Below, one piece after another: positions 25,356 to 40,943 of a stretch of 41,926 nucleotides of DNA. The number at the start of each line of letters is the position of its first letter. Positions within the stretch are counted from its first letter, which is position 1. Source of the DNA: Hellea sp. (GTDB taxonomy: Bacteria; Pseudomonadota; Alphaproteobacteria; Caulobacterales; Maricaulaceae); NCBI GenBank assembly GCA_023300105.1, contig JALZWM010000067.1, positions 1 to 41,926 of the forward strand. The letters run 5' to 3'. The notes below the pieces were generated by a model that was not told the DNA's origin, did not search any database, and saw only the letters and a program-made list of their open reading frames with translations. Both the position numbers and the translations under genes were made by a program.

Positions 25356-26321
25356 TCAAGGTAAAGTCGTCGGTAAAGTTGAGAGCCCTTTTTCGCTCAT
25401 CTCTAGAATAACTTCGATTAAAGCGTCCGCCGATTGGCCACCTTTATAGGTATCACCATTTATAAAGAATGCAGGAACACCTTGAACCTTGGCCGCTGTC
25501 GCGCGGTCGCCATTGGTGTGAATATGGCTAAGGCTTTCCACGTCTTGAAAGCAGGCTTGAATAGCCTCCTCATTTTCAAGGCCAGCAAGTTTTCCAACCT
25601 TATTATATTCTTCGCGCACTTTGCCAATTTCCGCTTGTTTGAACATCTCCAATTGGTTTTCCATTTGATATTGGACGACATCAAAGTAATCCTTAGACGG
25701 GGCGCATTCTGCCATCATGAATCCAACCATAGACATTTGCTGCGGCTGTGTAGGAAGCTCACGGAAGACAAAACGGATTTTACCGCTATCAATCAAATCT
25801 TTTTTAACAGCTGGCCATTCATTAGTGAACCATTCAGAGCAATGCGAACAGGTTACAGAGGCATAAACAATCATGGTAATCGGCGCTTTGTCATCCCCAA
25901 GCACATGATCGTCAGGCGCTTCGGTTAATGCAAAAGGCGTATTATCAACAGTCCGAGCTGCAACAAGCGGGACTGGCGCCTTAGCAGCATGATCGTGACC
26001 GCTATGGTCGCCGTCATCTGCCTCGTTTTTTTCGTCTGTGTTGTCATCCATTAAGGGAATAACAATAGGTATTGGCACAGGCTGAGGACTTTCCTCTAAC
26101 GGTATCGGGACTGGTGCAGGTTGAGATTGAAGCTCTGATTTCGCGCTAGCATCCAGAAGTTTTTCTTCGGAAGTAGAGTTTTCAGATTCTGAATCAAGTT
26201 CAGAATCAACACTAACGGATTGCGCCCAAGCGGTAGACTGTATCGCAGTCGACGTCAGACAACTTGCCGCCAATAAAGAAAAAATAATTTTCATATTAGG
26301 TTTCATCACTTTTGCTCTCAT
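25356..26321 (-). CDS. DsbA family thiol-disulfide oxidoreductase, secreted, with acidic/Pro-rich linker
   Basis: Signal-peptide-like N-terminus, MIVYASVTCSHCSEWFTNEWPAVKKDLIDSGKIRFVFRELPTQP (CxxC), VQGVPAFFINGDTYKGGQSADAL. Confidence 0.93.
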   Translation of the reverse strand: MRAKVMKPNMKIIFSLLAASCLTSTAIQSTAWAQSVSVDSELDSESENSTSEEKLLDASAKSELQSQPAPVPIPLEESPQPVPIPIVIPLMDDNTDEKNEADDGDHSGHDHAAKAPVPLVAARTVDNTPFALTEAPDDHVLGDDKAPITMIVYASVTCSHCSEWFTNEWPAVKKDLIDSGKIRFVFRELPTQPQQMSMVGFMMAECAPSKDYFDVVQYQMENQLEMFKQAEIGKVREEYNKVGKLAGLENEEAIQACFQDVESLSHIHTNGDRATAAKVQGVPAFFINGDTYKGGQSADALIEVILEMSEKGLSTLPTTLP

Positions 26322-31637: not shown

Positions 31638-32699
31638 CTATTCGTTGAGAGACCAGTCATACCCATAATCGACAACCTGGGCGCCATTATCAATGGCCTG
31701 CGCAAGTTCAGGGCGGGCATGTTTACGGATGTGTTGTAGTAAACCTGAGTTGCCGCCAAAATCACCTTTAAACCATTTAAAAATTGAGGAAACTTTCAAG
31801 CCTTTTGATGTGATTTGAACACCGCGCGGGGAATTAATATAATCTGCGGCCGCTTGTTCTTTAACGCGATCAAGAGAGCTTGCTTCCCAAGCTGAATTTA
31901 GCAAATTTGGACAACCAACACTGGCACAGTTAACCATATAATGGACGTATGGCGATGGGAATTGCTTACGTAGAATATCATGCTCTACAGCATTCAAACT
32001 TGAAGGCTCACCATTAAGTGTGAACAACTTCTTCTTCCAAGGTCCAGAACCAAGAGGTCCAAGCTTTTTAATCGACTTAACAGGGTAATTATCAACAATA
32101 ACCTGAACCGTTACCGCATTATAAAGGTTTGCATAAAATGCAATGGCTTCATTTTGCGGCAAGTTATTAGGATTAACGCCCTCTAGGTCTTTAATATAAT
32201 TATCTAGCGCGGCTTTATCCGCGCCATTAGCTTTAAGGCCGTTATAATTAAAATGAGTCAAACCTTGACCGTCAGGCGCGCTAACATATTTACTTAATAT
32301 ACCAGTAAAAGCCGCATGTGGTGAGGCCTTTACGCTTGCTTGAGCCGTACCCGAACCATAATTATTTTGAACTTCTTTAATAGCCACGGTATTTTCTACA
32401 CGTTGAGGTGTCTCAATCTGCTGTATAATAGAGGGAGATACTTGCGTTAAAGGTTGTGCTATAGGTTGCGTTAAAGGCGCAACAGACAGGGACGCAGGGG
32501 TTATCTGTTGTTGAGGAGAGACATAAACAGCTACCGTTTGAACCACAGGGGACTGCTGAGCTTGTTGTGCTGCCATTTTTTTGTGTAAAGGGCAATCTGG
32601 GTTTCCAGCATAAGCTGGAGTAGTTATTAGAATCAGTCCAGCGGTCATTAATAGCATGGATTTTTTAAATGTAGACTTCTTCGTTAAAAGGCGTGGCAT
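31638..32699 (-). CDS. DUF547 domain secreted protein
   Basis: Signal peptide; NEAIAFYANLYNAVTVQVIVDNYPVKSIKKLGPLGSGPWKKKLFTLNGEPSSLNAVEHDILRKQFPSPYVHYMVNCASVGCPNLLNSAWEA is DUF547. Confidence 0.93.
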   Translation of the reverse strand: MPRLLTKKSTFKKSMLLMTAGLILITTPAYAGNPDCPLHKKMAAQQAQQSPVVQTVAVYVSPQQQITPASLSVAPLTQPIAQPLTQVSPSIIQQIETPQRVENTVAIKEVQNNYGSGTAQASVKASPHAAFTGILSKYVSAPDGQGLTHFNYNGLKANGADKAALDNYIKDLEGVNPNNLPQNEAIAFYANLYNAVTVQVIVDNYPVKSIKKLGPLGSGPWKKKLFTLNGEPSSLNAVEHDILRKQFPSPYVHYMVNCASVGCPNLLNSAWEASSLDRVKEQAAADYINSPRGVQITSKGLKVSSIFKWFKGDFGGNSGLLQHIRKHARPELAQAIDNGAQVVDYGYDWSLNE

Positions 32700-39091: not shown

Positions 39092-40036
39092 ATGCGTATC
39101 AAAGTTTCAATATTGGCCGCCCTGAGTGGTTTAAGTTTAGCAGTCATATCTACGCCAGCTATGGCAGGCGGATGTGGTTATGGCGCGCCAGTGAATTGTA
39201 ATGCTGGAGTAAATGTTATTCCAACTGAAGCTCCCAGTTTTGGCCCTATGACTGTTGCAAATAACAACCCTTTGGGTCACTTGCGGACAATTAATTTTCA
39301 ACGCTCACCGCATGTCTCTATTACACGCATCCACGGTATGGCTCCAACAGCTTCCTTGGCTGACGCCCCGTCAGGTTTCACCGGCGGATGCCATCCGTCA
39401 TCAACACAATATTGCCGTGCCAATGCAGGGCAACCCGTTTCAGTCCAATTGAATACGCCTATAGCTCCAGCGCCTGTACAACAATTGCGAACATGGGTTG
39501 GAAAAGGATATGATCCGTCCAAGTTTGCACCGCGTCAATACGGTGATAATACATTCACACCTGGTATTGCGCATATTCCAACATCAATTGTCGACCGCAG
39601 TCCCATCAATGCACAAGCCGCGCTTAATTCCGGCCGCGCAGTCTCTCAACCTATTGTAAGTCCTTCGAACTATAATTTCGCAGCCGCTCCGAGCGCCTCT
39701 TATGCAACCAATAATTACGCTTCTAGCGCATACGGTTCTCAACCAAGTGCCCCTGTAGCCGTTGGTAACGGCATCTACGGGTCTAATGTAGGCGCGGATG
39801 GAACATATTGGGAAAAAACTTCAGGACCAACAATGTTAGGCAGCGCAGTCGCAACACAAGTTATTTGTAAGCGTCAATTACCGCGCCAAGTCGTAAATCC
39901 AATTATTAACGTTCCAGTCGCAGTACCGACACCTGTCGCTATAGCCGCTCCGGTTTGCCGTCCAGTTCCGTTTGGCGGACAACAAAATCTTCAAACCCGC
40001 TACGGCGCGGCTCAAGGATCAAGCTGGGTTAATTAA
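39092..40036 (+). CDS. Secreted hypothetical protein with PTPVAV-type C-terminal motif
   Basis: Signal peptide MRIKVSILAALSGLSLAVISTPAMAGG; Cys-containing GGCGYGAPVNCNAG; C-terminus VICKRQLPRQVVNPIINVPVAVPTPVAIAAPVCRP. Confidence 0.75.
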   Translation: MRIKVSILAALSGLSLAVISTPAMAGGCGYGAPVNCNAGVNVIPTEAPSFGPMTVANNNPLGHLRTINFQRSPHVSITRIHGMAPTASLADAPSGFTGGCHPSSTQYCRANAGQPVSVQLNTPIAPAPVQQLRTWVGKGYDPSKFAPRQYGDNTFTPGIAHIPTSIVDRSPINAQAALNSGRAVSQPIVSPSNYNFAAAPSASYATNNYASSAYGSQPSAPVAVGNGIYGSNVGADGTYWEKTSGPTMLGSAVATQVICKRQLPRQVVNPIINVPVAVPTPVAIAAPVCRPVPFGGQQNLQTRYGAAQGSSWVN

Positions 40037-40064
40037 AACAGTAAATCTTCAGTGGGGGGAGAAG

Positions 40065-40098
40065 AGAGCGGTACATTTGGGGGTGAATGCACCGCTCT
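40065..40098 (+). other. Long hairpin AGAGCGGT-A-CATT...AATG-C-ACCGCTCT between the two secreted-protein genes
   Basis: 13-bp stem with one mismatch, G-rich 8-nt loop (TGGGGGTG); no downstream T-run. Confidence 0.6.
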
Positions 40099-40128
40099 TC
40101 CCTCGTCCACACTATAAATCTTGCAAAA

Positions 40129-40149
40129 GATTCACCTCTTGGGTGAATC
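40129..40149 (+). other. Hairpin GATTCACC-TCTTG-GGTGAATC in leader of the second secreted-protein gene
   Basis: Perfect 8-bp stem, 5-nt loop, 62 nt before the ATG at 40212. Confidence 0.6.
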
Positions 40150-40211
40150 ACTTTGCTTTGGCACGTGTCTTGCTGTGGAGTAAGGCAAATGTATCATTAC
40201 GAAAGGTCGTT

Positions 40212-40886
40212 ATGTCCCGTATTTTCACTACCGTTGCCGCTCTTGCCGCAACAACACTTATGTCTAGCGCCGCTTTTGCGGGCTGCAGTTCTGGTACTTA
40301 CTGTAGCGGAGGATCATCTCTCGCGCCTTTGAGTAGCTGGTCAGGGTCTGCTTCAACAGGTTCCACTTTCGCGGCTCCAACATATTCAAGTCCGTCTTAT
40401 TCTTCTGGTTATTCATCTGGAACAACTTACGGGTCAGGTTCGAGTTATGCCTCTGGTGGAAGTTCATATGGTAGTTCATATGGCGGCGTAATGTCTTCAT
40501 CTGCAGCTGATGCAACATACGGAACGGGATCAATCTCTTCAGCATATGCTGGCCGTGATGTTGAAATGTACGCTTTTTCTGGTTCAACAAGCTCAGTGCC
40601 GGGCCTAGGATCTAATGAGAGCTTGCAGTCAACAGATTGCCCAGTGAATGTTTATAACCCAACAGGTGCCCGCGTCTTAGGATGCTATAATGTTGTAAAA
40701 CAAGTTCCACAGACAAATTATGTCCGTGTTGTTCGCCCTATTATTTATGTGCGCACGCCAGTGCCAACACCGGTTGCTGTGCCATATTACGCTAATCAGC
40801 AGCAGACAGCTTGTGGTGCGCAAAACATACAATATTCACGGTATGTAAACCGTCCTCAACAAAACAGCTGTGGCAACAGATGGTAG
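40212..40886 (+). CDS. Secreted S/G/Y-rich low-complexity protein with PTPVAV-type C-terminal motif
   Basis: MSRIFTTVAALAATTLMSSAAFAGCSSGTYCSGGSS; YSSPSYSSGYSSGTTYGSGSSYASGGSSYGSSYGG; RVLGCYNVVKQVPQTNYVRVVRPIIYVRTPVPTPVAVPYY. ATG at 40212 gives a clean signal peptide; ORF start at 39972 overlaps the preceding gene. Confidence 0.78.
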   Translation: MSRIFTTVAALAATTLMSSAAFAGCSSGTYCSGGSSLAPLSSWSGSASTGSTFAAPTYSSPSYSSGYSSGTTYGSGSSYASGGSSYGSSYGGVMSSSAADATYGTGSISSAYAGRDVEMYAFSGSTSSVPGLGSNESLQSTDCPVNVYNPTGARVLGCYNVVKQVPQTNYVRVVRPIIYVRTPVPTPVAVPYYANQQQTACGAQNIQYSRYVNRPQQNSCGNRW

Positions 40887-40916
40887 TCTGTTAGTCCTAC
40901 CAACATCTAAAAGTGG

Positions 40917-40943
40917 CCTCTCACGAAAGTGAGAGGTTTTTTT
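40917..40943 (+). terminator. Rho-independent terminator CCTCTCAC-GAAA-GTGAGAGG-TTTTTTT
   Basis: Perfect 8-bp stem, GAAA tetraloop, 7-T tract, just after the S/G/Y-rich gene and overlapping the pyrF stop codon. Confidence 0.92.

Follow-up and report, generated by a model that had tools for sequence, protein, structure and literature searches.

Adjacent secreted proteins P1 and P2 of a Hellea sp. with a common cysteine-flanked C-terminal module and a predicted sigma-54 promoter of P2

Consecutive genes for two secreted proteins

Two consecutive genes of Hellea sp. encode secreted proteins (termed P1 and P2) that resemble each other at both ends, raising the question of whether they are related, when they are produced and which structure of the cell they may serve. 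The window analyzed, i.e., a stretch of 41,926 nucleotides, represents contig 67 of a genome 2.4 Mb in size, for which protein searches revealed relatives in the genus Hellea and elsewhere in the Caulobacterales, Algimonas arctica among them. Orthologues of P1 and P2 were sought in a panel of 137 genomes of the family from 19 genera, some of these genomes being incomplete. Both P1 and P2 are real genes lying one after the other on the + strand; P2 truly begins with the ATG at 40212, whereas the mechanical ORF list extends it to an in-frame TTG further upstream (39972). The two genes and the segments of their products are as follows:

39092..40036, + strand: P1, secreted protein of 314 amino acids (ORF; orthologues)
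39092..39166, + strand: signal-peptide-like N-terminus of P1, residues 1-25, ending in AMA (sequence reading)
39167..39199, + strand: N-terminal Cys motif of P1, GGCGYGAPVNC (alignment of orthologues)
39269..39418, + strand: conserved block 1 of P1, residues 60-109, with C100 and C108 (alignment, segment conservation)
39494..39604, + strand: conserved block 2 of P1, residues 135-171, GYDPSKFAPRQYG..TPGIAHIPTSIVDRSP (alignment)
39860..39958, + strand: C-terminal module of P1, VICKRQ..PVAVPTPVAIAAPVC (module profile match, E 8.1e-6; profile comparison)
40212..40886, + strand: P2, secreted protein of 224 amino acids (ORF; orthologues)
40212..40280, + strand: signal-peptide-like N-terminus of P2, residues 1-23 (sequence reading)
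40281..40304, + strand: N-terminal Cys motif of P2, GCSSGTYC, with C25/C31 (alignment)
40305..40496, + strand: Ser/Gly/Tyr-rich variable stretch of P2, residues 32-95 (composition, conservation)
40674..40796, + strand: C-terminal module of P2, VLGCYNVVK..RVVRPIIYVRTPVPTPVAVPYY (module profile match, E 2.0e-16)

A sequence-only reading of the window had described a consecutive pair of secreted proteins with a common architecture. Indeed, both ORFs are in place, the hydrophobic, signal-peptide-like N-termini close in AxA and are followed by a pair of cysteines, and a Cys-flanked Pro/Val module lies near each C-terminus. Mature P1 contains six cysteines (at 28, 36, 100, 108, 259 and 289), as does mature P2 (at 25, 31, 143, 158, 201 and 220), and the pair in the N-terminal motif of P1 (C28/C36) is retained in most P1 orthologues. 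The low-complexity middle ascribed to both proteins applies to P2, in which Ser, Gly and Tyr make up 70 % of the poorly conserved residues 32-95, but not to P1, the middle of which comprises blocks conserved across genera according to alignment and conservation by segment.

The same reading had recognized no named family, in agreement with searches of Pfam and NCBIfam, which yielded nothing significant for P1 or P2 (a single match at E 0.036 arose among 18 P1 orthologues), and with a PDB sequence search, likewise without significant match (best E 0.87 and 0.078). AlphaFold models obtained from shallow alignments reached mean pLDDT values of 33.9 and 42.1, i.e., very low confidence and too low for a fold search.

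P1 has orthologues in 56 of the 137 genomes, spread over 8 of the 19 genera, and P2 in 52, spread over 7 of them; both genes are present in Algimonas arctica. The P1 profile had no match outside the family among 249 sampled genomes of the order, and a profile of the C-terminal module run across 289 genomes of the class gave no match beyond this family, the own genome alone scoring. The set formed by P1, P2 and a third protein, P3 (see below), is best read as lineage-specific and restricted to this family among the families sampled.

The gene order P1, P2, pyrF is found in several genera. Directly before P1, here as in the orthologues read, ends a gene whose product terminates in ...GDWERGGIxYDF* and which we take to be DUF1674/SDHAF4-like. 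In three Hellea genomes (G003, G006 and G008) P1 and P2 are located far apart or on different contigs; P2 then stays beside pyrF, and in G006 P1 remains behind the DUF1674 gene (the DUF1674 query being in the wrong frame). Such retention of P2 with pyrF and of P1 with DUF1674 upon separation fits separate promoters for the two genes. P2 was not found in genome G004 (88 % complete).

Shared C-terminal module and a third architecture

The C-terminal module follows the pattern Cys, then [RQ]VVxPxxxVxxPVPTPV, then again Cys, often succeeded by RYG. Comparison by hhalign of profiles built from 18 P1 and 17 P2 C-termini resulted in a probability of 94-95 and a score of 42-44, whereas none of 150 column shuffles exceeded 19.7 and the reversed profile reached 19.4; hence the likeness of the C-termini, already noticed by the sequence-only reading, exceeds an effect of composition. 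P2 orthologues were also matched directly by the P1 profile (E 9.8e-8, 1.9e-7 and 2.5e-6, each from a search of a single genome). Relatedness of the two modules beyond composition appears well supported, and confidence in it is high.

A convergent origin, in which unrelated secreted proteins would have acquired tails rich in Pro/Val and flanked by Cys owing to a common pressure on composition, could draw on the shortness of the strongly aligned, proline-rich core (20-27 residues), on the parts upstream of the module, which did not align within the C-terminal regions compared profile to profile, and on the AlphaFold models, which lend no structural support, but is improbable given that the scores of the shuffled and reversed controls stay below half that of the real alignment, that Cys, VVRP, PVPTPV and Cys recur in this order in P1, P2 and P3, and that the P1 and P2 genes are adjacent in many genomes, as expected after duplication.

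A search with the profile of the module only retrieved nothing besides P1 and P2 from the own genome, and revealed P3 in five Hellea genomes (G003, G004, G006, G007 and G008). In P3, the signal peptide is followed by a short Cys motif, the middle is repetitive and of the VTVMKPVTTMKP type, and the C-terminal end reads VVRPVVxVPYPVPxPxxC. By eye, the middles of P1, P2 and P3 look unlike one another. As its ends match those of P1 and P2 while its middle differs, P3 strengthens the earlier idea of one module carried on different middles; the module is shared above chance by P1 and P2 (with P3), as would suit members of one family.

Modular exported proteins are known in which one C-terminal sorting or assembly module is combined with differing middles, and P1 and P2 may be compared to these in the way they work. 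Unlike such proteins, they show neither a C-terminal anchor helix nor a signature of the LPXTG or PEP-CTERM type, the module being instead Pro/Val-rich and Cys-flanked, nor did a sorting enzyme come to light.

Sigma-54 promoter and palindrome upstream of P2

The following features were located between P1 and P2 and downstream of the latter:

40065..40098, + strand: intergenic hairpin AGAGCGGT..ACCGCTCT after P1, without T-run (read in the sequence)
40129..40149, no strand assigned: palindrome GATTCACC-TCTTG-GGTGAATC (= GATTCACCTCTTGGGTGAATC), candidate activator site (conserved upstream of P2)
40159..40173, + strand: predicted sigma-54 promoter of P2, TGGCACGTGTCTTGC (strict-site scan; conserved in orthologues)
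40915..40938, + strand: intrinsic terminator 3' of P2 (terminator scoring)

The site TGGCACGTGTCTTGC provides the -24/-12 elements TGGCAC-N5-TTGC upstream of P2 and is the sole strict sigma-54 site in the window. When regions upstream of P2 from 30 genomes were scored in comparison with the strongest other site of the respective locus, a clear site at similar distance was apparent in all six Hellea genomes with P2, as well as in most genomes of genera g9, g2 and g6 with readable upstream region. The promoter is thus kept in four genera (g1, g2, g6 and g9), surpassing the best site elsewhere in the locus; genus g12 carries P2 without a recognizable sigma-54 site in the scored upstream region. 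No sigma-54 site is present upstream of P1, neither here nor in its orthologues. In case of P3, a site is located shortly upstream in all four genomes whose upstream region lies on the contig. A sigma-54 promoter of its own appears well supported for P2 (with high confidence as regards the motif), and P1 is probably transcribed separately, the hairpin at 40065..40098 representing a possible transcription end.

Strict sigma-54 sites were also observed before other conserved, exported-looking genes of Hellea (loci L154, L156, L158, L169, L170, L175, L176 and L179), among the products of which are a lipoprotein, a secreted protein of ~493 amino acids and several that resemble type I-secreted repeat proteins.

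The palindrome is situated directly upstream of the sigma-54 site. With at most one mismatch, TTCNCC...GGNGAA precedes 17 of 26 P2 orthologues compared to 2.3 % of random 170-base pieces from the same loci and to 2 of 17 regions upstream of P1 orthologues, and perfect copies occur in 6 of 26 versus 0 of 474 random pieces; the counts are not independent, since the P2 orthologues are related, and the enrichment is partly circular, since some of these promoters had served to derive the motif, a circularity limited by the random-position and P1-upstream controls. In genus g12 (loci L112, L116, L120 and L122) a palindrome of the TTTTCCCC..GGGGAAG type is found upstream of P2 in the absence of a sigma-54 site. 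The palindrome of the window also scores as a weak terminator-like hairpin; a function as mere terminator was discarded, because a good T-run is missing and g9 genomes have a separate T-run hairpin before it (by eye).

Both ends of the palindrome constitute GANTC sites in this genome (at 40129 and 40145), the only ones between 37576 and 41388. Across the window, 63 GANTC sites were counted versus ~161 expected from base composition, an avoidance that would fit a CcrM-type methylating genome.

XRE gene and candidate activators

Scanning 59 family genomes for the right arm of the palindrome (GGGGAA) followed by a sigma-54 site yielded one match in the own genome, located before an XRE regulator gene; with the GGTGAA arm, a scan of the own genome gave two (P2 and one other), the reversed-pattern control giving none in both versions. 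The same layout before the XRE gene was read in six further genomes (G006, G009, G061, G072, G073 and G128). The sigma-54 genes under TacA control in Caulobacter include staR, which encodes an XRE protein, and TacA also governs the formation of the stalk there (PMC10274813, PMC5590869). Assignment of the present gene as StaR was dropped, since several similar XRE proteins exist in Caulobacter, with CdxA being the widely conserved, class-wide one (PMC10688885); it is therefore referred to as StaR/CdxA-type and may be CdxA-like.

Two AAA+ activators with a GAFTGA-type loop are encoded in the genome, namely a TacA-like response regulator, the loop of which reads GSFTGA, and a LuxO-like regulator on contig 57. 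No GAFTGA was seen in NtrX and NtrC of the own genome, and a PspF-like activator (L194 3697-4737, contig 91, beside a pspA-like gene) has FGKTFMDS at this position, leaving the TacA-like and LuxO-like regulators. Identification of the TacA-like protein as FlbD was rejected, its 329 bits being far below the FlbD cut-off of 750; it is also below the other named family cut-offs shown. The C-terminus of the TacA-like protein reads SA here and AG in a relative from the family (G023), AG being the degradation end of Caulobacter TacA (PMC7010744).

The TacA-like protein shares 85-92 % identity with its counterparts in the six other Hellea genomes with P1, and the three Hellea genomes without P1 and P2 (G001, G002 and G005) also have no TacA-like protein. 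This co-occurrence of P1 and the TacA-like protein (7 of 7 versus 0 of 3; Fisher p = 1/120) has to be read in view of the small size of the latter three genomes (1.8-2.0 Mb), as genome reduction may by itself account for the genes being missing together. Genera g4, g5, g8 and g15 possess the TacA-like protein, and P1 and P2 were not found in them; the P1/P2 set is thus not needed for a TacA-like programme in general. Judged from these sequence comparisons, the TacA-like response regulator is the best candidate for the activator of P2 and P3, with about an even chance of being the right one.

Possible function in the stalked cell

Should the TacA-like regulator be the activator, the proteins would be made during swarmer-to-stalked differentiation. 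Hellea forms stalks (PMC7179689). The explanation preferred here, held tentatively at slightly below an even chance, is that P1, P2 and P3 together form a set of secreted proteins particular to this lineage and belonging to the envelope or the extracellular space, with P2 and P3 produced via a developmental sigma-54 programme and the stalk as a plausible destination. P1 and P2 would most likely be exported by Sec and form disulfide cross-links within the envelope or beyond it. The shared C-terminal module may join them to a common extracellular or envelope structure, and the protein-specific middles would give each protein its own role. Expression of P1 would proceed separately from that of P2, which (together with P3, where present) would be made when the sigma-54 programme fires, plausibly upon differentiation of the swarmer into the stalked cell. 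The plausible site is the stalk (prostheca) or the stalked pole, a location proposed with lower confidence than activation by the TacA-like regulator. Doubtful as a whole is the more specific version, in which P1, P2 and P3 would be structural parts of the prostheca or of a surface structure at the stalked pole, their Cys-flanked PVPTPV modules fixing the differing middles to one disulfide-linked scaffold, with P2 and P3 driven by the TacA-like regulator and sigma-54 and possibly tuned via GANTC methylation at the palindrome.

Likeness to the TacA/sigma-54 stalk regulon of Caulobacter (ShkA-ShpA-TacA phosphorelay, target staR) comprises the sigma-54 promoter, the TacA-like regulator, the StaR/CdxA-type XRE gene with similar promoter layout and the stalk-forming host genus. 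The difference resides in P1, P2 and P3 themselves, for which no match beyond this family was obtained. Under the stalk reading, their role would be comparable to that of StpA-StpD and StpX, known stalk components of Caulobacter (PMC5590869), to which they are likened by role only. According to the literature, the genetics of prosthecae is poorly defined, and their presence is not robustly predictable from genomes (PMC12700997). P1 and P2 are testable candidates for parts of the stalk or cell surface; if the preferred explanation is true, P1, P2 and P3 would be concrete genes to delete and tag, and possible genome markers of stalk formation in marine relatives of Hellea. Newly described are P3 as a third architecture, the conservation of the sigma-54 promoter and of the palindrome preceding P2, and a connection with a regulator of developmental type.

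The same sigma-54 programme could alternatively operate at settlement and supply secreted matrix, adhesion or holdfast-associated proteins of an attached lifestyle rather than stalk parts, with repetitive, Ser/Gly/Tyr-rich middles serving cohesion outside the cell. Such a function is possible but unlikely: export, the abundance of cysteines and the composition of the P2 middle would suit it, as would the occurrence of other Hellea sigma-54 sites before conserved secreted genes and the fact that the XRE group to which the regulators with the shared promoter layout belong acts in Caulobacter as a repressor of the holdfast inhibitor hfiA (PMC10688885), but family searches disclosed no known adhesin or holdfast domain in P1 or P2, and holdfast genes were not found nearby in the window.

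Even less is to be expected from envelope-stress or nutrient-response proteins activated with sigma-54 through the LuxO-like instead of the TacA-like protein. The LuxO-like regulator does combine an intact GAFTGA loop with a neighbouring hybrid histidine kinase; however, within the genus the presence of P1 tracks the TacA-like protein exactly, and no LuxO-like match at E 1e-20 was among those listed for the P1-bearing genomes G004, G006 and G007 (the last being incomplete).

Several further genes were noted. A secreted gene starts 17 bases after the TacA-like gene (L191 1407-2519, contig 50), its product containing two CPSGTxxQSDGTC motifs; a similar motif was seen by reading in some P2 orthologues (L051, L054 and L055), and the succession of a TacA-like activator gene and a secreted gene recurs in G006, G009 and G010. 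Within the window, a thioredoxin-fold protein with a CSHC motif (25356-26321, - strand), presumably of the DsbA-like family, is a possible disulfide catalyst. A further secreted protein (31638-32699, - strand) has a Cys shortly after the signal peptide, followed by a Gln/Pro/Val-rich stretch and then a conserved-looking domain.
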